Shown here: in pieces, positions 8,525-21,372 of the stretch
How positions within the stretch are numbered: position 1 is the stretch's first letter
Layout of the letters: every line of letters starts with the position of its first letter
Assembly: GCA_026646335.1 (NCBI GenBank)
Contig: JAPKFY010000018.1
Location: 1 to 32,194, forward strand
DNA from: Aequorivita sp.
GTDB taxonomy: Bacteria; Bacteroidota; Bacteroidia; Flavobacteriales; Flavobacteriaceae
Direction: 5' to 3'
Length of the DNA stretch: 32,194 bases
Notes under the pieces: model-generated
Database searches by the model: none
Seen by the model: only the letters and a program-made list of their open reading frames with translations
What the model was told of the DNA's origin: nothing
Made by a program: the position numbers and the translations under genes

Positions 8525-11470
8525 ATGAAAACAGTATTTGACCCTCGATTAAAAGCGATGCTCTCACTAGATGATTCTGAGGTGGTTAGAGGCATCAACC
8601 ACACCGGTGAACTTTACGAAAGTGAAAAGGATACTCCAAGAATAGCAGCCTTGGAATATCTCAATGACATCCATGATGTTTTACAAATTCCTGCGAAAAC
8701 TTTGAAAAATGCCTATCAAAAAGTATCTTATATCCATCCGATGGATCAGGAGGTGGAATATAGGCTTTCCGAAGAAAAAACTTTTTTTGATTCTACCACT
8801 TTCGGTTTTTACCAGACCTATCTCAACGTTCCCATTTGGCGCACAGGACTTTCCGTTACTTTAAAACACGGTCCTAACAGGATTGTCATGCTGACAAACA
8901 ATAGCAAATATGATGTAAAGGGGAAATTGCCAAAGGAAGAGAACATCAACCGATTCAAGCAGTTTATTGCCCAAGGCAAATCAGACGACGGCCAGGGGCA
9001 GTTGACCGATGGTCTTGCGAAGGATTCCGAATCTGACATTGTATTGAACGATATTTTAGGAATAAGACCTAAGTCGAAATCAAAATCAAAACAATCAAAT
9101 GTGAGTACCAATGAAATCCCTGCAAAACTTGTCCGCGGAAGATTCTATATGTACAAATACGATAGTGCCAACAGGCAAAGAACGGAACCTCCTATACAAA
9201 CTGGGGAAGTTCTGCAACACGGACACGAGTTCCATTTTGATTTACCAGAAGTGGATTCCTCCATAAAGGACGGTAACTATTATTTGGTTGCGGAGATAAC
9301 ATTTTCCTACAACAAAATTGTTTATTTGATACTCGTTGATGTCCAGACCTCCTCCGTGCTTTATATTGAACCACTTTCTTCGGGAGTCAATGGACAGGTT
9401 TTCATCCAAGACCCCATTACCAGTTCGGGAGTGGGCACCAACACACCAAATCAAAGCAATGCGGTACTGAATCCATTCCGTACTTCCGATACCTTGGACA
9501 ATCTGGACGCTCCCGTTAGTGGAACACAGCACTTAAAAGGTGTATATGCTGAAATTTCCAATGTGGTAAACCCAAATCCCACCATCCCCACTAGACCTTC
9601 TGGTTCTAACTTTAACTATCAGGTGCGCACCGATGATTTTGCAGCTGTAAATGCTTATTATCATACCGATAGGTTTTTTTCAATGGTAGAGGATCTAGGA
9701 TTTCCTATTTCTACTTATTTTGATCAGACAACCTTTCCAATTCCCGTTGATCATAGAGGAAAAGGATCTGGGCACAGTGGAACGGGCAATGAGATAAACG
9801 CCCACTGCGTGGGCAATGGTTCAGGTGGCATAGGCCATTGCTGCTTCCTTTTGGCGGATAATAGCGACACTTCAAGCCCAATGGGCATTGCTGCCGATTG
9901 GCGGGTGCATTTGCATGAATTGGGAGGCCATGGTATTTTATATGAACATGTAGATTCCGCAAATTTTGGCTTCTCGCACAGTGCGGGCGACAGTTTTGCG
10001 ATGATTGTGAGCGACCCCGAATCCAATGCGCCAGATAGGTTTTTGCTGGCACCTTTTGTTCCTGTAATAGTTAGGAGGAGTGATCGGCCCGTTTCCACTT
10101 GGGCATGGGGAGGCACCATAGATATTAATGACACTTATTATAAATATCAAAGGGAACAAATTTTGTCAACAACTATGTTCAGGATTTACCGCTCCATCGG
10201 TGGCGATTCCACCAGTTTGAATCGCAGGAAATTCGCTTCGGAAATGATGGCTTACTTAATGCTTAGGACCATATCAACTTTCATGCCGGGAACCAATCCA
10301 GCAACCGCACTTCCTTTTTGCACCGCTATGATGGCTACGGATTTATTAAATTGGACCTCTAGGGGAATTTATGGTGGTGCCTATAACAAAGTGATACGTT
10401 GGTCTTTTGAGAAACAAGGGCTATTCCAGCCAACCGGAGCTCCCACTCCAGTTACAACGGAGGGCGCCCCTCCTGCAGTAGATGTATATATTGAAGATGG
10501 GCGTGCGGGCGAATACCAATACCAAGGGGTTCACTGGAATTGTCTGTCCATTTGGAACAACAATGGAAGCACCCTTTTTAGTCCTACTCACGAAGAGCCA
10601 ATTTTGGGGGCAACTAACAAGGCTTACGTAAAACTCAAGAATCGTGGAACCCAAACGGCTACGGGCGTCAATGTAAGGGCATTTCATTGCAAACCCGGGG
10701 CAGGCTTGCTCTGGCCAAATGATTTTGTTGAAATGACCTATACCGGCGGTACCATTGGCACCATAAACCCAAACAGTACCGAAGAAATACAGGTAGGACC
10801 ATTTGAATGGGTGCCCAATATAAACGCCTATGGTCACGATTGTATACTTATGATTGCAAGCGCCACCAATGACTCGAGCAATATCGACCACTTTATTGCG
10901 GGTGAAGTAATTCAGGAGTGGCGGTTGGTGCCAAACGACAATAATATTGGTCAACGCAATGTACATCCGGTTGCTGGTGGTGGCGGTACGGAGGGTTTGG
11001 TCGCTTCACTGCACAACAAAAGTTTTTGGGCTGGAAACCCCAATCCAAAAAAGGCGAAAATGACTGTTGAAGTAGAGCTGCCTCGGCTTTTGGTAAGCAA
11101 GAAATGGAGCATTTCATTTCCTGGGATACACAATAACGAGTTCCATCTAAGGCCCAATGAAAAAAAGGAACTTATTTATAATCTAAAAGTAGGTGAGGAC
11201 TTTACTAAGGCCGAGGTTGAGGCCAACGCAAATAAGGACATTACCGTATCACTGTTTGCGGACGGGGCCCTGATAGGAGGAATGACCTATTATTTGGATG
11301 CCAATATGAAAGCCCCCATCAATGCTGGTGACCCTTGCGGAACAAAATGCAATTCTAAAGCCGAAGAGCTCTTAAGATGTCTTAAACTTTCTAATCAAGA
11401 AATCAAGAGCGTTAAGGTTAAAAAGATTTCTTTAGACATTGAAATGAAAAATGGAGATTGTAAATGTTAA
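8525..11470 (+). CDS. Large zincin-like metalloprotease with HEXXGH motif and no signal peptide
   Basis: The product has 981 residues. The N-terminal part contains an FTP-like propeptide region (FYQTYLNVPIWRTGLSVTL near residues 97-115). The centre has HLHELGGHGILYEH, with H464-E465-x-x-G-H469 in place of the standard HExxH. A downstream HSAGDS places D489 exactly 20 residues after H469, where thermolysin-like enzymes have their third zinc ligand (Glu). After that come a beta-sandwich-like region (AYVKLKNRGTQTATGVNVRAF, CARDB-like) and a C-terminal tail with five cysteines (CGTKC...CLKL...CKC). There is no signal peptide (start MKTVFDPRLKAMLSLDD) and no T9SS domain. It is probably a metallopeptidase of M4/M36-like ancestry; activity and location are inferred and uncertain. 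Confidence 0.6.
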   Translation: MKTVFDPRLKAMLSLDDSEVVRGINHTGELYESEKDTPRIAALEYLNDIHDVLQIPAKTLKNAYQKVSYIHPMDQEVEYRLSEEKTFFDSTTFGFYQTYLNVPIWRTGLSVTLKHGPNRIVMLTNNSKYDVKGKLPKEENINRFKQFIAQGKSDDGQGQLTDGLAKDSESDIVLNDILGIRPKSKSKSKQSNVSTNEIPAKLVRGRFYMYKYDSANRQRTEPPIQTGEVLQHGHEFHFDLPEVDSSIKDGNYYLVAEITFSYNKIVYLILVDVQTSSVLYIEPLSSGVNGQVFIQDPITSSGVGTNTPNQSNAVLNPFRTSDTLDNLDAPVSGTQHLKGVYAEISNVVNPNPTIPTRPSGSNFNYQVRTDDFAAVNAYYHTDRFFSMVEDLGFPISTYFDQTTFPIPVDHRGKGSGHSGTGNEINAHCVGNGSGGIGHCCFLLADNSDTSSPMGIAADWRVHLHELGGHGILYEHVDSANFGFSHSAGDSFAMIVSDPESNAPDRFLLAPFVPVIVRRSDRPVSTWAWGGTIDINDTYYKYQREQILSTTMFRIYRSIGGDSTSLNRRKFASEMMAYLMLRTISTFMPGTNPATALPFCTAMMATDLLNWTSRGIYGGAYNKVIRWSFEKQGLFQPTGAPTPVTTEGAPPAVDVYIEDGRAGEYQYQGVHWNCLSIWNNNGSTLFSPTHEEPILGATNKAYVKLKNRGTQTATGVNVRAFHCKPGAGLLWPNDFVEMTYTGGTIGTINPNSTEEIQVGPFEWVPNINAYGHDCILMIASATNDSSNIDHFIAGEVIQEWRLVPNDNNIGQRNVHPVAGGGGTEGLVASLHNKSFWAGNPNPKKAKMTVEVELPRLLVSKKWSISFPGIHNNEFHLRPNEKKELIYNLKVGEDFTKAEVEANANKDITVSLFADGALIGGMTYYLDANMKAPINAGDPCGTKCNSKAEELLRCLKLSNQEIKSVKVKKISLDIEMKNGDCKC

Positions 11471-12021: not shown

Positions 12022-15000
12022 ATGAAAAAATCAACACTACTCTTGATGGTGCTGTGCATGCTGACTATTCAGCTTTCCGCGCAGCACAAAAACCCAGAAA
12101 AAGAAAAGGAAGCAGCGCGATTGGCCACCGAGCCATCGACCATTTCGCTAGAAAAACTCATTACAAGTAAAAGTGATTCTTATGTAATTACTAAAGAACA
12201 CGTAAGCAGCATCAGTGGTATTCGCCACGTATATTTACGTCAGGCCATTAATGGGCTTGAGGTTTACGGAACCGAATCCAGCGTGCATTTTGACAAAACC
12301 GGAAAACTTATAGTGGAGCACAATAAGTTCTTGGCGGATATACAAGCTACCGTTAAGAGCAGTTCCCAAGGAATTTCAGCTCGACAGGCAATCTCTTCTG
12401 TCGCTGGCCAAATGGGATATAGGGTTGCAAACCTTCAGGAAATAAAAAGTATAGGAGGTAAGAATAAAGCGGCTGTATTTAATAAAGCAGGCATTTCTTC
12501 CGAAGATATTCCTGCCAAGTTAATATATTATTACAGAGAAGGTATCGGGACCCACTTGGTTTGGGAACTTTCCGTAGCCGAAAAAACTTCATCAGATTGG
12601 TGGAACTTCCGCGTTGACGCAGCCACAGGAAAAATAATAGACAAAGACAATTGGACTATTTCCTGTAATATTTTGGGTGATCACGAAGACCATGTACATT
12701 CCGCTAAGGACATAGCTCCTTTTGTTGGCCCAATGGAGAAACCAATTAATTACAATACTGCGAGCACATCAAATATGGCAGCACCCCCAGCTGCAAGCTA
12801 CAGGGTGTATGCTATGCCTATTGAAAGCCCAAATTTCGGAACACGTACTTTGGTTACTAATCCAGAGAATTTGACCGCCTCACCTTTTGGATGGCATGAT
12901 ACAAACGGAGATGACACTCCCGAATTTACCAATAGCCGCGGAAACAATGTAGATGCGTATGATGATGATAACGCAAACAATAATCCAGATGGTAAATATG
13001 CTTTCAGCCCTGGCGGAAACTTAGTTTTTGATTTTCCCCTGAACACTACATATAGCGCTGGGAACCAATCTGAAAGTGCGGCTATCACTAATTTATTTTA
13101 TTGGACAAACATCATTCATGATGTAACTTATCAATATGGTTTTGATGAAGCCAGTGGAAACTTTCAACATAATAACTACGGTAACGGCGGACTTGGGAAT
13201 GACCCTGTAAATGCTGAGGCCCAAGATGGATCGGGAACTTGTAATGCAAATTTTGCCACTCCTGGAGACGGTAACAGACCGCGTATGCAGATGTATGTTT
13301 GTAATACTAGGGATGGTGACTTGGATAATATGGTAATCATTCATGAATACGGTCATGGAATTTCGAACAGATTGAGCACATTAGGTGGCCAAGAACAAAT
13401 GGGTGAGGGTTGGAGTGATTATTATGGCTTATTGCTAACAATGGAAAGTGGAGATGCCGGGCCAGATTCTCGAGGTGTGGGAACTTGGTTGATTGGCGAA
13501 GGTCCAGGAGGCGCAGGTATAAGAACTTGGCCATACAGTACTAATTTTGGGGTAAACCCGCATACTTATGACGATATTAAAACCGAAGTAGCTCCACACG
13601 GCGTTGGCTCGGTATGGGCAGAAATGTTGTGGGAAATGACTTGGGAGCTTATAGCTATCCATGGTTTTGATCCAGATTTTTATAATGGAACCGGAGGAAA
13701 TAATATATCATTGGCATTGGTTACCGAAGGCTTAAAATTACAGGTAAGCCAACCCGGTTTTGTAAATGGACGAGACGCAATCTTGGCAGCAGATATGGCA
13801 ATGTACGGCGGAGCCAATCAATGTGCTATTTGGAATGCCTTTGCTAGAAGAGGTCTTGGCTATAGCGCCATTCAAGGTTCTTCGGCAAGCAAAACAGATG
13901 GTACCGAAGCTTTTGATTTGCCACCAACTTTTTCCAGTTTAGATGTTATTGATGAAGTATGTCTTTCCGATGGAATTCAAACTGGGCTTTCTGGTGGTAA
14001 TCCAGCTGGAGGTGTTTACAGTGGCCCGGGCGTAACCGATAATGGCGGTACATTTACTTTTGACCCAAGTGTGGGAGGCCCAGGTTTAGTGACTGTTACT
14101 TATACAGTTAATGACTTTTGTACTGGCGCTCCAACAATTTTAACAGACGATATTAATGTAACCAACGACCCACCTGAAATTATATGTTTGGGGACAGGGA
14201 ATATACCGATGACTGGCTCCCAATCCAGCAGTCCGGGAACAGCGATTCCAGATAATAACCCTACAGGCGTTACTGTAAATATGAATGTTACGGAAGATGT
14301 CTCCATTACAGATTTGGATGTCAATTTAAACATCTCACATACTTGGGTAGGTGACCTTATTGTTACAATAAAATCACCAGCGGGTACTATGGCAGTAATT
14401 GTAGATAGACCTGGAAGAACAACTTCTGGTGCTGGTTGCTCTGGAAATAATATTTTGGCAACTCTAGATGATGAAGCGGCTACTCCTGTTGAAAGTGAAT
14501 GTGCAGGATCAGTGCCTACTATTAATGGATCATTTATACCAAATAACCCATTGTCTATATTTGATGGTGAGAGCACATTGGGTATTTGGCAGCTTATAGT
14601 TTCTGATAATGCGGGTGCAGATATAGGCACAATTAACGGTTGGGGAATAGATTATGATTATGAAGTAACTGCACCAGTTTTAGATGTTACCCTAGACGGT
14701 AGCGGCAACGCAACTGTAAATGCTGAAGATTTACTGTTCAGTGTTACCGTTGATTGTGGAAGTTATACGGTACTTGCTGGAAGCCCCTTGGCTACAACGG
14801 TTAGTTTTACTTGTTCAGACATAGGCTTGAATACGGTTGCTGTTGAGGTTACCAATGATAGCGGCGCAACATCAACTTGCTCGGCCATTGTAAACGTTAT
14901 TGGCGGCGGCGGCGGCGGTCCATTTGTTTGCCCAGGAGATATTACCCAAGACAACGATCCAGGCATTTGCGGCGCAGTTATAACTTATACAGTTGATTCT

Positions 15001-17850
15001 CCTTCGGGTTGTGGCGGTAGTTCTGGACCTTTGGCAACAGCCATACCAGGACTCGTTCTTTCAGACGCAATCGCTGGTGGTGATTATAATATTAGTTTAT
15101 GTTACAATCCAAATGTAGATAAGTATTACAGCGTAAATGGCGGCTTTAATACCGGTTCTAACATACAATGCTTTGATGGAACAACAGGAGCTTCCATTAG
15201 TAGTACTACTGCAGACTTTGATTTTAGAGGAGCTTGGTGGAACCCTTTTCTAAACCAGGCAGAAGCAAACGGATATAGCTCTACTGGAATTGTAAGTTTA
15301 ATTTTAAGTGGCGATTGTCCTGTGACAGGTTTTAATCCAGAACAGACTGGAAACCAACCAGACATACAGTCATGTGGAGATTTTAACTATGATAGTAATG
15401 AAATAATCTATTATAATTCCGGCGCCATTACACGAGTTAATAGAACAACAGGTGTGACTGTAGGAACTGATATATTAACAGGTACTCCACCGGGTACAAT
15501 TTATAAGTCATATTCTATTGGATATACAGGTGAAACTGGTTATGAGTATATTTTATATGATAATGCTACACTATCTGCCCATTTGTATGATTTAAGTGGA
15601 GCGTTTACTGGTTCTACTTCAGTTGGGCAGACCACACCACAACTTGCTGATTTCCAGTTTACCTATGAAAATGGTCAGGCATGGTTTTTTGATGGCACTA
15701 AGTGGGTTGGCTATATTATTTTTGATGCTGCTAGCGGTACCATCACCCAAACAGCAGGCCTGCCAAGCGGTAGCACTTTCCCTGTGGGAACAACCACCAA
15801 TACTTTTGAGTATGACGATGGTGTGAATCCAGTACAAACCTGTTCTTTTGATGTAACAATAAATGATACTGAAGCACCAGTTGCAAATTGCGTAGCTCCA
15901 TTTATCGTCCAATTGGATGCCAATGGAATGGCAAATATTACTGTCGCTAATGTTGATAATGGAAGTACAGATAATTGCGGAATCGCTTCTTTAAGCGTTT
16001 CTCCAAGTAGTTTCACTTGTGCGGATGTAGGCCCTAACAGCGTTACGTTAACTGTAACCGATGTAAATGGTATAAGTTCAACTTGTACTACTACAGTAAC
16101 GGTGCAAGACAATGTAGCGCCAACAGCTGTTTGCCAAAACATAACCGTTCAGCTGGATGCTACCGGAAATGTTTCCATTACTGCAGGTGATGTGGATGGA
16201 GGCAGTACCGATGCTTGTGGAATTGCTGGCACGTCTATTGACATTTCAGATTTCACTTGTGCGGACATTGGCCCTAACAACATAACCTTAACGGTAACTG
16301 ATGTTAACGGAAATTCAAGCACTTGCGTCGCGGTTGTTACGGTAGAAGATGACCTTCCGCCAACAATAGCGTGCCCTGCAGACATAACTGTCAATAACGA
16401 TGCGGGAACGTGCAGTGCGATAGTTACCTTCCCAATGCCATTGGTATTGGATAATTGTGGTGCGACAGCTACCCAAACTGGCGGTCTTTCAAGTGGAAGT
16501 GACTTCCCAGTAGGAGTTAACACTGTTGAATTTACAGCTACTGACGGAAGCGGAAACACTGCAGTCTGTAGCTTTACAATAACAGTTGTTGATAATGAAG
16601 CGCCGACTATGGTTTGCCAAAACATCACTATTCAGTTGGATGCTTCAGGAAACGCATCTATTACTGCTGCTGATGTTGACGGAGGTTCTACAGATAACTG
16701 CGGAATTGCAAGTATATCGGTCAGTCCAAGTACTTTTGATTGTAGCGATGTGGGCGATAACCCAGTGGTGTTAACAGTTACTGATATTCACGGAAATTCA
16801 AATACTTGTACGGCAATTGTAACCGTAGAGGATGTTACCCCACCAGTAGCAGTTTGCCAGAACATTACTGTTGAATTGGATCCGGTGACCGGTACAGTGA
16901 CTATTACCGGAGCAGACGTTGACGGCGGAAGTACCGATGCTTGTGGAATAGGTTCCTATAGTTTGGATATCGATACTTTTGATTGTTCAAATATAGGCGA
17001 CAACACCGTTGTACTTACAGTAATTGATGTTAACGGTAACAGCAGCACTTGTACTGCTATCGTAACTGTTGAAGATAACACCAATCCAGATCTCGTATGT
17101 CAAGACTTTACGTTGGAACTTGGGGCTGATGGAACAGCCACGCTTAATCCAAATGACGTAATAGCAAGCAATACGGATAATTGCGGTATCGCAACTATTG
17201 CAGTAGATATTACTGAATTTAGCTGTGCAGATATCGGTACACCTGTAACGGTTCAAGTATTCGCGAGCGATGTGAACGGTAACTTAAGCACTTGTACTGC
17301 AGTGGTTACGGTTGTAGATCTATTGGCACCAGTATTGACTTGTCCTGCAGATCAAACCGTTGATCCCGGAGCTGGTAATTTGTTCTACATTCTTCCAGAT
17401 TATTTCGCAACTGGTGAAGCAACAGCAATTGATAACTGTACAGATCCAGTTACAATACTTTCGCAAGATCCAGTTGCTGGTACACCGTTACCTGATGGTG
17501 TTTATCCCATCACTTTAACTGCAGAGGATGAATATGGAAATGTATCCACTTGCTCGTTTGAACTTACAGTTATGTCTGTATTGGGTGCGGGCGATCATAA
17601 TGCTGATTTAGGAAGTGTACAAATGTATCCAAACCCTGCCAAGCATACGGTAATGATTGGAAACCCAGCAAGTCTTTCTCTTGAAAATCTAAGGATATTC
17701 GATATCAGAGGAAGAATGATCAAAACCATCGACCTGCGAAATATGGGAGCTGAAAAAGCAATTGATGTTTCTGAAATGGCTGCCGCTACTTACCTTGTAG
17801 TTATTCAAGGTGAAAACGGAGAGATAACCAAGAGGCTTATTAAGGAGTAA
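12022..17850 (+). CDS. Secreted M36 (fungalysin) metalloprotease with P-domain, HYR repeats and T9SS sorting domain
   Basis: The product has 1942 residues. Order of parts: signal peptide (MKKSTLLLMVLCMLTIQLSA); FTP propeptide (about 30-210); M36 catalytic domain with HEYGH at 441-445 and Glu462 in MGEGWSDYYG, the expected zinc ligands; a P/Homo-B domain (about 720-882, with HTWVGDLIVTIKSPAG and GIWQLIVSDNAG); a first HYR-like unit; a glycine linker (about 962-968); a HYR domain split by a ~235-residue insert (about 1000-1235); five homologous ~80-residue repeats plus two HYR domains (about 1290-1855); and a C-terminal T9SS type A sorting domain (MYPNPAKHTV to KRLIKE, about 1862-1942). It is expected to be exported by Sec, then by T9SS to the cell surface or medium to degrade proteins. 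A terminator follows directly. Confidence 0.93.
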   Translation: MKKSTLLLMVLCMLTIQLSAQHKNPEKEKEAARLATEPSTISLEKLITSKSDSYVITKEHVSSISGIRHVYLRQAINGLEVYGTESSVHFDKTGKLIVEHNKFLADIQATVKSSSQGISARQAISSVAGQMGYRVANLQEIKSIGGKNKAAVFNKAGISSEDIPAKLIYYYREGIGTHLVWELSVAEKTSSDWWNFRVDAATGKIIDKDNWTISCNILGDHEDHVHSAKDIAPFVGPMEKPINYNTASTSNMAAPPAASYRVYAMPIESPNFGTRTLVTNPENLTASPFGWHDTNGDDTPEFTNSRGNNVDAYDDDNANNNPDGKYAFSPGGNLVFDFPLNTTYSAGNQSESAAITNLFYWTNIIHDVTYQYGFDEASGNFQHNNYGNGGLGNDPVNAEAQDGSGTCNANFATPGDGNRPRMQMYVCNTRDGDLDNMVIIHEYGHGISNRLSTLGGQEQMGEGWSDYYGLLLTMESGDAGPDSRGVGTWLIGEGPGGAGIRTWPYSTNFGVNPHTYDDIKTEVAPHGVGSVWAEMLWEMTWELIAIHGFDPDFYNGTGGNNISLALVTEGLKLQVSQPGFVNGRDAILAADMAMYGGANQCAIWNAFARRGLGYSAIQGSSASKTDGTEAFDLPPTFSSLDVIDEVCLSDGIQTGLSGGNPAGGVYSGPGVTDNGGTFTFDPSVGGPGLVTVTYTVNDFCTGAPTILTDDINVTNDPPEIICLGTGNIPMTGSQSSSPGTAIPDNNPTGVTVNMNVTEDVSITDLDVNLNISHTWVGDLIVTIKSPAGTMAVIVDRPGRTTSGAGCSGNNILATLDDEAATPVESECAGSVPTINGSFIPNNPLSIFDGESTLGIWQLIVSDNAGADIGTINGWGIDYDYEVTAPVLDVTLDGSGNATVNAEDLLFSVTVDCGSYTVLAGSPLATTVSFTCSDIGLNTVAVEVTNDSGATSTCSAIVNVIGGGGGGPFVCPGDITQDNDPGICGAVITYTVDSPSGCGGSSGPLATAIPGLVLSDAIAGGDYNISLCYNPNVDKYYSVNGGFNTGSNIQCFDGTTGASISSTTADFDFRGAWWNPFLNQAEANGYSSTGIVSLILSGDCPVTGFNPEQTGNQPDIQSCGDFNYDSNEIIYYNSGAITRVNRTTGVTVGTDILTGTPPGTIYKSYSIGYTGETGYEYILYDNATLSAHLYDLSGAFTGSTSVGQTTPQLADFQFTYENGQAWFFDGTKWVGYIIFDAASGTITQTAGLPSGSTFPVGTTTNTFEYDDGVNPVQTCSFDVTINDTEAPVANCVAPFIVQLDANGMANITVANVDNGSTDNCGIASLSVSPSSFTCADVGPNSVTLTVTDVNGISSTCTTTVTVQDNVAPTAVCQNITVQLDATGNVSITAGDVDGGSTDACGIAGTSIDISDFTCADIGPNNITLTVTDVNGNSSTCVAVVTVEDDLPPTIACPADITVNNDAGTCSAIVTFPMPLVLDNCGATATQTGGLSSGSDFPVGVNTVEFTATDGSGNTAVCSFTITVVDNEAPTMVCQNITIQLDASGNASITAADVDGGSTDNCGIASISVSPSTFDCSDVGDNPVVLTVTDIHGNSNTCTAIVTVEDVTPPVAVCQNITVELDPVTGTVTITGADVDGGSTDACGIGSYSLDIDTFDCSNIGDNTVVLTVIDVNGNSSTCTAIVTVEDNTNPDLVCQDFTLELGADGTATLNPNDVIASNTDNCGIATIAVDITEFSCADIGTPVTVQVFASDVNGNLSTCTAVVTVVDLLAPVLTCPADQTVDPGAGNLFYILPDYFATGEATAIDNCTDPVTILSQDPVAGTPLPDGVYPITLTAEDEYGNVSTCSFELTVMSVLGAGDHNADLGSVQMYPNPAKHTVMIGNPASLSLENLRIFDIRGRMIKTIDLRNMGAEKAIDVSEMAAATYLVVIQGENGEITKRLIKE
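15892..17330 (+). repeat. Five intragenic repeats of about 79 codons in the M36 protease gene
   Basis: Units begin near 15892, 16132, 16612, 16852 and 17095. Each encodes the pattern CQNITVQLDATG - DVDGGSTDACGI - FTCADIGPN - TVTDVNGNSSTC - TVED, with cysteines at fixed places. A canonical HYR domain (16369-16611) separates the second and third units, and the fifth unit is the most diverged. These stalk-like repeats probably space the catalytic domain from the surface anchor. Confidence 0.8.
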
Positions 17851-17906: not shown

Positions 17907-17969
17907 CTTTTGAATGGTATTGCAATTTTAATTTTGGTTTTATCGTTTGGAAGTATTAATCCCCAAATT

Positions 17970-18785
17970 ATGAAAATATATACGTTTTTTATTTTGGCAA
18001 TTATAACAATTGCTTGCTCCAATAATGACGATGAAAGCACTGAAATCCAACAGCCCAATTCAAACTATGTAATTCCCACGGGAAAAACTTTTGAATGGCG
18101 ATTGGACAGCCTTACCAATAATTACACAACTACCGCTGATGTTATAGACATAGATGCTTTTTCAGCAACACCCGAATTAGTGGCTAATTTAAAGACGCAG
18201 GGAAAAACCGTAATCGCGTATCTTTCTGTGGGGAGCGTTGAAAATTACCGTCCGGATGCAAGCGATTTTCCCCAAGGCGTAATAGGAAATGAATACGACG
18301 GTTATCCCGATGAAAAATGGTTGGATATTCGTGAAATTGAACTTTTGGCGCCAATTATGGAGGCCAGATTCAATATGGTAAAAAGCAAAGGTTTTGATGG
18401 TATTGAACCCGATAATATGAATGGCTACCAAAACAATACAGGTTTTGATATTTCCGAAGAAGATGCTATTGCATATTCTCGCTGGTTGATAGGGCAGGCG
18501 CACAGTCGAGGTTTATCAATGGGTCAAAAAAATTCGGAGGAATTGATTCCAAGCTTGTACGATGAATTTGATTGGATTCTTACGGAAGATGCTTTTGTAG
18601 ATGAATTTTATGAAGAACTGACTCCATTTATATCTGCAGGGAAAGCAGTTTTTTTAGTAGAATATACAGATAGAATCTCCTCAGGAGATTTTCAAACGCA
18701 AGTGTGTCCGAATGCTATTTCAAGAAATTATTCAGCAGTTTTGAAAAATAGGGATCTTACCAATGTAACTTTTTACTGCAATTAA
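17970..18785 (+). CDS. GH114-like (endo-alpha-1,4-polygalactosaminidase family) lipoprotein
   Basis: With the start at ATG 17970 the protein has 271 residues and a lipoprotein signal (MKIYTFFILAIITIAC, Cys16), followed by an Asn/Asp/Ser-rich linker, as for Bacteroidota surface or periplasmic lipoproteins. The longer frame from 17910 adds 20 residues that overlap no lipoprotein signal and was not used. The body matches the TM1410/GH114 TIM-barrel pattern: TFEWRLDSLTNNY, VIAYLSVGSVENYR, DEKWLDIRE, GFDGIEPDNMNGY (acidic residues D143, E146, D148) and a C-terminal region with FLVEYTD. Known members cleave alpha-1,4-galactosaminoglycan polymers such as Pel-type exopolysaccharide. Substrate here is unproven. 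It converges with the next gene, 17 bases apart. Confidence 0.8.
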   Translation: MKIYTFFILAIITIACSNNDDESTEIQQPNSNYVIPTGKTFEWRLDSLTNNYTTTADVIDIDAFSATPELVANLKTQGKTVIAYLSVGSVENYRPDASDFPQGVIGNEYDGYPDEKWLDIREIELLAPIMEARFNMVKSKGFDGIEPDNMNGYQNNTGFDISEEDAIAYSRWLIGQAHSRGLSMGQKNSEELIPSLYDEFDWILTEDAFVDEFYEELTPFISAGKAVFLVEYTDRISSGDFQTQVCPNAISRNYSAVLKNRDLTNVTFYCN

Positions 18786-18802: not shown

Positions 18803-19744
18803 TTAAAGTGAACCCACTTCCTTTTTGGCAATTTCAAATTCGTCAATCATATCTTTTAAAATCTGTGCCGCAGGTTTTATATCGTGGATAAGCCCTGCAA
18901 TCTGCCCAATTTCCAATTCACCTTCTTCAAGATCGCCTTCAAACATTCCGCGTTTGGCACGGGCTCGGCCCAAGTGTTTTATTAGGTCTTCTTTAGTTGG
19001 GTTGGTTGTGTAAAGCTGCATTACGCTTTCAAAGAATTTATTTTTCAGCATCCTCACGGGAGCCAATTCTTTTAAAGTAAGTTGTGTGTCGCCTTCTTTG
19101 GCATCTACCACCATTTGCTTAAAGGCACGATGGGAAGAAGCCTCTTCCGACGCAACAAAACGACTGCCTACTTGTACGCCATCTGCGCCCAAAACCATTG
19201 CTGCGAGCATTCCACGGCCAGTGGCTATTCCGCCAGCGGCTATTAAAGGAATGTCCAGTTGTTCTTTTACCATAGGGATCAACGTGAAGGTTGTAGTTTC
19301 TTCGCGACCGTTGTGTCCGCCAGCTTCAAAGCCTTCGGCAACCAAGGCATCAACGCCTGCTTCCTGTGCTTTCAATGCAAATTTCACACTGCTTACCACG
19401 TGAACAACAGTAATTCCGTGTTCTTTCAGTTTTGATGTATAGGTTTTTGGATTGCCAGCTGAGGTGAAAACTATTTTTACACCTTCTTCAATGATGATAT
19501 CGATTATTTTTTCAATATCAGGATAGAGCATCGGCACGTTTACGCCGAAAGGTTTATCAGTTGCCTTCTTACATTTCTGAATGTGTTCCCGAAGAACTTC
19601 AGGATACATGGACCCAGCGCCCAAAAGCCCCAAACCGCCAGAATTGGAAACAGCGGTGGCTAATCGCCAACCGCTGTTCCAAATCATTCCAGCTTGAATT
19701 ATAGGGTATTGAATATTAAAAAGTTCGGTAATCCGGTTTTTCAC
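18803..19744 (-). CDS. Nitronate monooxygenase / FabK-like flavoprotein
   Basis: This 313-residue FMN-dependent TIM-barrel protein belongs to the 2-nitropropane dioxygenase / nitronate monooxygenase family, which also includes FabK enoyl-ACP reductases. Landmarks are the N-terminus ITELFNIQYPIIQAGM, the SGGLGLLGAGSM loop, VAEGFEAGGHNG (His144, the usual catalytic histidine), AAGGIATGRGM and ADGVQVGSRF for FMN phosphate binding. The start codon is GTG at 19744-19742 and shares one base with the TAG stop of the upstream protease gene (TAGTG), which suggests translational coupling. The nitronate versus enoyl-ACP role cannot be decided from sequence alone; a housekeeping detoxification role is the default inference. 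Confidence 0.88.
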   Translation of the reverse strand: MKNRITELFNIQYPIIQAGMIWNSGWRLATAVSNSGGLGLLGAGSMYPEVLREHIQKCKKATDKPFGVNVPMLYPDIEKIIDIIIEEGVKIVFTSAGNPKTYTSKLKEHGITVVHVVSSVKFALKAQEAGVDALVAEGFEAGGHNGREETTTFTLIPMVKEQLDIPLIAAGGIATGRGMLAAMVLGADGVQVGSRFVASEEASSHRAFKQMVVDAKEGDTQLTLKELAPVRMLKNKFFESVMQLYTTNPTKEDLIKHLGRARAKRGMFEGDLEEGELEIGQIAGLIHDIKPAAQILKDMIDEFEIAKKEVGSL

Positions 19745-21372
19745 TATTCCTTGATAATTTTATAGCTTGTTGTTTTATTGTTTGACGTAATTGAAGCAAT
19801 ATACATTCCAGAGGCAAGTCCAGATACATCAATACGGTTCTTAAAAGTAGTGATATTTGCTTTAAGAATTCTTTCGCCTAAAATATTGAAAAGCATAAAT
19901 TCAGCATTCTCTGAATTTTTTGGGAAAGAAATATTTATTTCTGTGGTTACTGGGTTTGGATATAGTGCAAAATTAGTATCAAGCATTTGCTCTTCAACAC
20001 CTATGGTCAAAAGGGCATTCAAAGCGGAACCAAAATCTGGAACTCCGTAACCATATTGATCCGTAGGGTTGTTATATCTATCCGCAGATTCACGAATGGC
20101 CTGCATCACCACATCATTTTTCAAATTGGGAACCGCACTCCATAAAGAAGCTACCGCTCCTGCAGTAATAGGGGAGCTAAACGAGGTTCCACTTGCGGTA
20201 GTTACATTGCCGTTTTGGCTCACTATCGCTGCGTCAAGACCCTTGGCCATTACGTCTGGTTTAATTAGCCCAGCAGAATTAGGTCCGTAGGAACTAAAGC
20301 TCACATAATTTTTATTGGCATCAACGGCACCAATAGTAAATGATCCAGCTGCATCGGCTGGTGTACCTACATACCCAAAACCATTGCCGTCATTTCCAGC
20401 AGAGGTAACAGTAATCATTCCTTTGTCAAAAGAGGCGTTAGCACCACGAGCGGCAATAGTTGTCAGCCCGTCAAGATCTACATATTGATGGTCGTATGAT
20501 GGATTATCAAAATCTTGGTAGCCCAATGAAGTATTTGTTACATATACTCCTAAGCTATCAGCGCGTTCCAATGCTTCAACCCAATAGGCTTCTTCAGCTG
20601 GAGTCTCTTCATTACCGTCTTCTGTGATATACAAGTAATAAGATGCGCCAGGCGCAGTACCAACAAATTGACCGTTCATAAATCCAGCGGCATCACTGAA
20701 AGTTGCAGCACCGTGACTTCCAGTTCCATTTGGATTTACAGTTCTATCTACAAAATCGTAATAACCTAACAGTCTGCCTTCATTTCTAAGGGTTGCATAG
20801 GCTGGGTTGGTCAATACTCCTGGATAACCATTATCCATAAAAGCCACGATAATGTCTTGGCCTATATAATCGTTTTCGTGAAGGTAATCCACGTTGATCA
20901 TTTCTGTTTGGTTGGTTGCGCTTCCGTAGTTATAAACAGGTCTGGCTTGATTTTCAATTTCAAATTTATCTTTTGTAAATTGTTTTCCTGCAGTAGGTCT
21001 GTTTAAGCTTTTATCAGCAAACTCCACATCGGTCACAAAAGGAAGCGATAAAAGATTGTTGATGTTGTTTTCGGTTCCACGTACGTAAACAGCGTTCAGC
21101 CATTTTGATTTTGCAAGAACGGTAATTCCTGAGGCAGCATTAATAGCAGCTTTTTGGGTTTCGTTCAAGGGTACGTCACGATCATCTATTGCAATGCCTT
21201 GTGCATTTTTTCTGTCAATAGCCGCTTGGGTCATAATGGTTATTGGGGCAGCCAAAGCTGCTGAAACCACAGCTGGATCTTTAGCTTCCAAAAACACAAG
21301 AGCATCCTCGGTTTGGGCAAAACTAAAGGTTGAAACAAAAACAAGTAATAATAGGGATAATTTTTTCATCAT
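19744..21372 (-). CDS. Secreted subtilisin-like (S8) serine protease with T9SS sorting domain
   Basis: The product has 542 residues: signal peptide MMKKLSLLLLVFVSTFSFAQ, a pro-region (about 21-125), and an S8 catalytic domain. The triad is visible as Asp180 (IIVAFMDNGYPG), His220 (GTGSHGAATFS) and Ser397 (TASGTSFSSPITAG), with oxyanion Asn327 in TSAGNDGNG. The C-terminal T9SS type A domain runs from about 466 (ALYPNPVTTEINISFP) to the end (SYKIIKE). It should be exported by Sec and T9SS. It lies 7 bases downstream of mnmA and overlaps the following flavoprotein gene by one base, so the three look like one transcript even though their functions differ. Confidence 0.95.
   Translation of the reverse strand: MMKKLSLLLLVFVSTFSFAQTEDALVFLEAKDPAVVSAALAAPITIMTQAAIDRKNAQGIAIDDRDVPLNETQKAAINAASGITVLAKSKWLNAVYVRGTENNINNLLSLPFVTDVEFADKSLNRPTAGKQFTKDKFEIENQARPVYNYGSATNQTEMINVDYLHENDYIGQDIIVAFMDNGYPGVLTNPAYATLRNEGRLLGYYDFVDRTVNPNGTGSHGAATFSDAAGFMNGQFVGTAPGASYYLYITEDGNEETPAEEAYWVEALERADSLGVYVTNTSLGYQDFDNPSYDHQYVDLDGLTTIAARGANASFDKGMITVTSAGNDGNGFGYVGTPADAAGSFTIGAVDANKNYVSFSSYGPNSAGLIKPDVMAKGLDAAIVSQNGNVTTASGTSFSSPITAGAVASLWSAVPNLKNDVVMQAIRESADRYNNPTDQYGYGVPDFGSALNALLTIGVEEQMLDTNFALYPNPVTTEINISFPKNSENAEFMLFNILGERILKANITTFKNRIDVSGLASGMYIASITSNNKTTSYKIIKE

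Follow-up and report, generated by a model that had tools for sequence, protein, structure and literature searches.

The gene, its relatives and their motif states

The stretch of DNA analysed here, called the window in the following, comprises 32,194 nucleotides of contig JAPKFY010000018.1 from Aequorivita sp. (assembly GCA_026646335.1) and carries a gene for a protein of 981 residues, which we interpret as a putative zinc peptidase of M36-like descent with a remodelled metal site (Table 1). Translation of positions 9908-9997 of the forward strand gives HLHELGGHGILYEHVDSANFGFSHSAGDSF (residues 462-491), in which the residues discussed below are encoded at 9914-9916 (H464), 9917-9919 (E465), 9929-9931 (H469), 9977-9979 (H485) and 9989-9991 (D489). 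The hexapeptide H464-E-L-G-G-H469, on which the original prediction for this locus was built, is thus real, one residue longer than HExxH and kept in the nearest relatives. It is also the only feature reminiscent of dipeptidyl peptidase III (DPP III, family M49), as had been noted: at E <= 1 the window protein has no Pfam match of any kind, and so neither M36 nor M49. NCBIfam (E <= 1) and PDB sequences (E <= 10) gave no match to the window protein either, and a 7-row profile of its family found none among PDB sequences. The suspicion that this is an undescribed group is borne out insofar as the family has no name in Pfam (window protein and six relatives scanned) or NCBIfam (window protein and five relatives), and PF02128 (M36) is not matched by the relatives L002, L003, L004, L020, L005 and L027 (L and G numbers denote loci and genomes).

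Table 1. Features of the putative metallopeptidase gene (window positions)
Feature	Position	Strand	Basis
Whole gene, leaderless M36-like putative metallopeptidase of 981 residues	8525..11470	+	Open reading frame; full-length relatives L002, L003, L004 with 46-53% identity
FTP-like N-terminal (propeptide-type) region, residues 24-132	8594..8920	+	hhalign; sub-threshold Pfam FTP in L004, L020, L005
Catalytic domain, M36-like, residues 286-637	9380..10435	+	hhalign to M36-like set
HELGGH hexapeptide with putative zinc ligands H464 and H469 and putative general base E465	9914..9931	+	Translation; conservation among rows
HSAGD (HxxxD); H485 putative third zinc ligand, D489 putative second-shell Asp	9977..9991	+	Conservation; hhalign pairing; masking mixed
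Y541-Q-R-E544; Tyr541 putative oxyanion stabiliser	10145..10156	+	Conservation; hhalign pairing with His of M36-like set
C-terminal module, about residues 649-815, common to other peptidases	10469..10969	+	Matches to L022, L018, L016

Screening of genome contigs with peptides from the protein, an approach limited to close relatives, yielded the three full-length loci of Table 1, and plasmid records added Paracoccus sp. AK26 (46.3% identity) and Mesorhizobium onobrychidis (L020, 39.2%). Whole-genome searches, in which most groups were covered as samples, show that the family is rare and patchy within the genomes searched. In the window's taxonomic family, 14 of 299 genomes matched at E <= 1e-3, of which, judged by motif, only two are members of the protein family, G000 and G156 (L005); the remaining matches are M36-like proteins or arise via the C-terminal module. 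At E <= 1e-20 there were two matching genomes among 395 of the window's phylum (G000, G651) and two among 385 of the class of G681. With E <= 1e-12, matches were obtained in the phylum of G681 (4/398, two being M36-like proteins), the genus of G681 (3/125), the genus of G1012 (6/7), the genus of G156 (2/9), the phylum of G680 (1/193) and the order of G679 (1/61). Two other genomes of the window's genus were searched and neither matched, and the window's own assembly holds no second match to the protein. No relative was found in viral contigs scanned with the family alignments and the window's own M36 protein (see below), nor in phages.

For comparison we used 15 distinct family rows over the region of window residues 274-663. 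Left out as redundant were L019 (motif stretch and open reading frame length identical to L004), L049 (same gene as L048) and L023-L026, L035, L036, L044, L045 and L050 (same places as earlier loci). L048 is cut at a frame break shortly after HxxxD, and residues past about 502 rest on the other 14 rows. This break, which splits the family gene L048/L049 of G1692 (same genus group as Paracoccus aerius), may reflect decay or an assembly error.

Within this set, the hexapeptide form HExxGH occurs in six rows (window, L002, L003, L004, L047 and, as HEVLGH, L048) and HExxH, one residue shorter, in nine (L005, L020, L027, L039-L043, L046). Homologues lacking the motif had been named as evidence that would count against the prediction; nine of the 15 rows do lack the hexapeptide, but all nine have HExxH in its place. 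Residues H464, E465, H469, H485 and D489 are invariant in 15/15 rows, and the three histidines are the only invariant ones of the compared region. H485 and D489 belong to H-S-x-G-D, likewise found in 15/15 rows, with H485 located 16 and D489 20 positions (x19) after the second motif His. Since the nine HExxH relatives also have HxxxD, its His cannot be explained as a side effect of the hexapeptide. Further invariant residues include D520, Y541, E544, K622 and E629; the first invariant Glu past E465 is E544, 75 positions after H469.

Descent from M36-like proteins

The M36-like set used as reference consists of 15 rows, including the M36 protein encoded at 12022-17850 of the window (which matches 4k90), and most of its members are only distantly M36. 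Among five members scanned, L006 and L012 exceed the PF02128 cut-off, L028 and L037 stay below it and L013 has no match (E <= 0.1), while FTP was found in all five (below cut-off in L013). Profile comparison with hhalign relates the family to this set with a probability of 99.3% and an E-value of 1.9e-20 for seven family rows and 99.2% and 1.7e-19 for all 15; a reversed template and five column-shuffled ones gave E-values of 0.31-0.81. L021 (G651) serves as a bridge, as it combines Pfam matches to M36 (2.4e-10) and FTP (2.8e-5) with the motifs HEFGH and EEGFND, and the family aligns to it with 99.6% probability (E 6.1e-25). The N-termini were compared separately, using nine family rows and 14 M36 and M36-like rows (including L021 and the window's M36; rows longer than 60 residues were kept): residues 24-132 align with a probability of 92.6% and an E-value of 4.7e-7. 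Pfam FTP appears below threshold in three of six family relatives scanned (L004, L020, L005) and is absent from the window protein at E <= 1. Taken together, these profiles relate the catalytic domain to gluzincins of the M36-like (fungalysin-type) kind, with strong support where the M36-like set is concerned, and connect the N-terminus with the FTP propeptide, in line with the ancestry originally proposed.

The family also looks leaderless. In a crude hydropathy test, which is not a signal-peptide program, none of the 14 family rows scored (the start of L048 was left out) had an N-terminal hydrophobic segment: the best 12-residue value near a possible start was at most 1.43, compared with 2.1-3.15 in 13 M36 or M36-like proteins. 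L021 shares this property (0.52).

Trees were calculated with the M36-like proteins and L021 as outgroup, and a second time without the zinc motif in every row and without L048. A single branch sets all HxxxD rows apart (15 rows, support 100/99; 14 rows, 100/100 in the second tree), and the family's HExxH rows group together (98/99 and 89/99). The HExxGH rows are not one group in the best tree and were grouped in 8% and 45% of bootstrap trees; a single HExxGH clade is not rejected (p-AU 0.439, second tree). L021 sits on a long branch beside the ExxxD proteins. On these trees the Glu-to-His change discussed below is placed as one step and the change in motif length as one or two, so that HExxGH may have been gained a single time or gained and later lost. 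L002 and L003 are close on the tree and come from metagenome-assembled genomes labelled Kiloniellales and Candidatus Omnitrophota, for which mis-binning or transfer is possible.

The third ligand and the proposed zinc site

In M36 peptidases, zinc is bound by the Glu of an ExxxD motif whose Asp touches a motif His (PMC6117016), and in thermolysin His142 is bonded by Asp170 (PMC3268031). In four of five hhalign settings, H485 stands opposite the Glu and D489 opposite the Asp of ExxxD, both for the M36-like set and for L021. Since H485-S-A-G-D489 aligns to ExxxD in this way, H485 falls in the place of the ligand. Masking of residues 463-470 leaves H485 on the Glu in both comparisons, and the pairing with L021 also survives masking of residues 484-490 and 463-490. 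Most likely, D489 therefore matches the second-shell Asp of the M36 motif and H485 replaces the ligand Glu; as third ligand, H485 is favoured rather than proven.

A second exchange concerns Tyr541, which is invariant together with E544 in the 14 rows reaching that point. It aligns to a His of the M36-like set in four of five settings and to a Tyr of L021 in three of five, and masking of residues 538-548 leaves these pairings unchanged. The conserved His of the M36-like relatives is presumably the equivalent of thermolysin His231, and Tyr541 may act as oxyanion stabiliser in its stead. An M36-like site with a His as third ligand and a Tyr for the conserved His, which we consider likely, would be more unusual than the site originally predicted.

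Several results weigh against this assignment. At -mact 0.6, neither L021 nor the M36-like set gave a pairing of the third-ligand region. Masking of residues 484-490 shifts the alignment to the M36-like profile and brings D489, rather than H485, opposite the ligand Glu; masking of 463-470 lets H469 slip by one against the same set, and under masking of 463-490 no pairing is reported there. Compared with the window's true M36 protein alone, the family scores weakly (10.6%, E 0.0029). In this comparison the third-ligand region is reached only at -mact 0.1, where H485 stands opposite the W and D489 opposite the D of EGWSD, and Y541, reached in a single setting, stands opposite a Val located two residues beyond the His. 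An alignment to which this M36 protein had been added was dropped, as MAFFT placed the third-ligand region badly. AlphaFold2 predictions from four rows each were too poor to help (mean pLDDT, the predicted local distance difference test score, 35.3 for the full length and 31.9 for the catalytic domain), and because of this our reading rests on sequence profiles.

The sliding of the masked profile suits the original proposal that Asp489 is the third ligand, in which case an M36-like peptidase would have become an Asp-zincin and H485 would play an auxiliary part. D489 is indeed invariant, and the count of x19 was correct: the distance from H469 equals 20, which we take to be the thermolysin spacing. 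This agreement is nevertheless weak evidence, because the distance from the second His to the ligand Glu varies among the three M36-like relatives measured (17 in the window's M36, 18 in L021, 19 in L006). Moreover, the unmasked profiles place D489 on the Asp and H485 on the Glu, L021 retains these pairings even under masking, and the invariance of H485 would be left unexplained. A ligand at D489 would also predict a second-shell acid at position 493, where all 15 rows have Met, Ala or Leu, which speaks for H485. We therefore regard the assignment of Asp489 as probably wrong and this alternative as unlikely. The other suggestion, a catalytically dead relative whose fold or metal site is retained for binding or as a scaffold, draws on the replacement of two residues of M36-like proteins (the ligand Glu and the conserved His), on the missing signal peptide and on the lack of a known family. 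It is quite unlikely as well, because E465 is invariant in 15/15 rows together with both motif histidines, which is not expected of a dead enzyme. In addition, HExxxH sites can work, as known from M49 and TldD (PMC5805324, PMC3268031, PMC5810440).

Two further possibilities were considered. If H475, six positions after H469 as in HExxHxxGxxH, were the third ligand, the site would resemble that of metzincins. This His is present in five of the six hexapeptide rows and in L020; it is replaced by Asn (L005, L046), Ala (L048) or Arg (the six rows of the L027 group), and the position of the Gly is taken by Leu472 in 15/15 rows, which makes this reading very improbable. A metal enzyme other than a peptidase is the most improbable of all. 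Three-His sites can bind iron too. Aromatic amino acid hydroxylases hold their iron at HELLGH (PMC3268031); against this reading stand the homology of the catalytic domain to M36-like peptidases and the FTP-like region attached to it.

On balance, the gene probably codes for a zinc endopeptidase that descends from M36-like gluzincins and has a remodelled His-His-His site, with E465 as general base. In such an enzyme, H464 and H469 of the HExxGH motif would bind zinc together with H485, the hexapeptide probably being fitted by widening of a helical turn, as is the case in DPP III and TldD. E465 would activate the water molecule, D489 would orient a motif His from the second shell and Y541 would stand in for the transition-state-stabilising His of thermolysin and M36 enzymes. 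The FTP-like region probably folds against the catalytic domain and restrains it, as in M36 zymogens. As no signal peptide is seen, the protein would work intracellularly or exit by another route.

Surroundings of the gene and comparison with known metallopeptidases

Downstream of the gene, the window encodes two peptidases sorted by the type IX secretion system, i.e. the M36 protein mentioned above, which carries HYR repeats (12022-17850), and an S8 peptidase, as well as a GH114 gene (the latter two among 17910-18785 and 19744-21372). No conserved operon was seen, as the neighbours of family loci differ by annotation or, where scanned, by Pfam. The GC content of the gene (0.437; window 0.409) shows no striking sign of foreign composition, and PADLOC returned nothing for the two proteins tested. 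In Mesorhizobium, the relative L020 lies near genes for a LodA/GoxA-type oxidase and a flavin-dependent (FAD) monooxygenase (L020:1-2146 and 8919-10979), and an M28 peptidase gene downstream of it has no detectable similarity to the window protein. In G1012, a PAP2-superfamily protein with a glycine-rich start adjoins the family member (L034:4279-5727).

Peptidases of other families, namely M28 (L022), M43 (L018) and S8 (L016), also contain the C-terminal module (about residues 649-815), and the C-terminal part of L020 matches two plasmid places annotated as S8 peptidase and zinc-dependent metalloprotease. Save for a sub-threshold CARDB in L003 and L020, the module has no Pfam name. In G651 (L033:2336-7231), the gene after the leaderless M36-like L021 encodes an M28 peptidase with the same module and a sub-threshold Ada-type zinc-binding tail. 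The window protein itself ends in a short Cys-containing tail (11330-11467) with the terminal motif DC-x-C, which is kept in L002, L003 and L004.

Among known systems, the M36 peptidases (PF02128) and secreted M36-like proteins share with the family a catalytic domain that is homologous by profile, an FTP-type N-terminus (likewise by profile), the HE..H pair and the Asp of xxxxD. The window protein differs from them in that it has no Pfam M36 match, HELGGH instead of HExxH (the latter being present in 9/15 family rows), a His for the ligand Glu, if the hhalign alignment is right, a Tyr for the conserved His and no signal peptide seen. Closest in kind outside the family is L021 with its HEFGH motif, FTP match, leaderless start, Tyr at the position of Y541 and common C-terminal module; unlike the family, it keeps the ligand Glu (EEGFND) and groups with ExxxD proteins on the tree.

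The hexapeptide itself links the protein to M49, within which HExxGH and HExxH variants are both known (PMC5805324, PMC9820243), and a shortened motif in DPP III changes activity with copper (PMC3268031). In M49, however, a Glu located 52 residues further along serves as third ligand (PMC3268031), whereas the candidate His here lies 16 positions on. TldD of the TldD/E protease likewise fits HExxxH into one turn of a helix, and its third ligand is not a Glu but Cys454; its fold is dissimilar to that of thermolysin (PMC5810440). A review of 2011 states that HELLGH occurs in no other metalloprotease (PMC3268031), and the string HELGGH was not found in the open-licence papers searched. Among the titles and abstract beginnings surveyed, none described an M36- or thermolysin-type enzyme with a His as third ligand.

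With the metzincins (MA(M): astacin, serralysin, matrix metalloproteinases), the family would share a three-His zinc site, and in astacins and serralysins a Tyr is also found near the metal. Unlike them, the family does not conserve HExxHxxGxxH, and its homology is to gluzincins. It is about an even call whether a gluzincin (M36-type) scaffold has here naturally turned all-histidine and metzincin-like (HExxH...HxxxD with a Tyr for the catalytic His), with one subgroup carrying the HExxGH turn and both the ligand swap and the length change visible among living relatives. MEROPS divides clan MA, mainly according to the third ligand, into Glu, Met-turn and Asp subclans (PMC3890501). If our reading is true, a lineage of the Glu branch has swapped its Glu for His, in both HExxH and HExxGH forms, and clan labels would not be fixed by descent. 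The relatives would then offer natural matched pairs for the effect of an extra residue and of a ligand swap on metal choice and catalysis, and the family as a whole may serve as a natural test of how much a zinc site can change and yet function.

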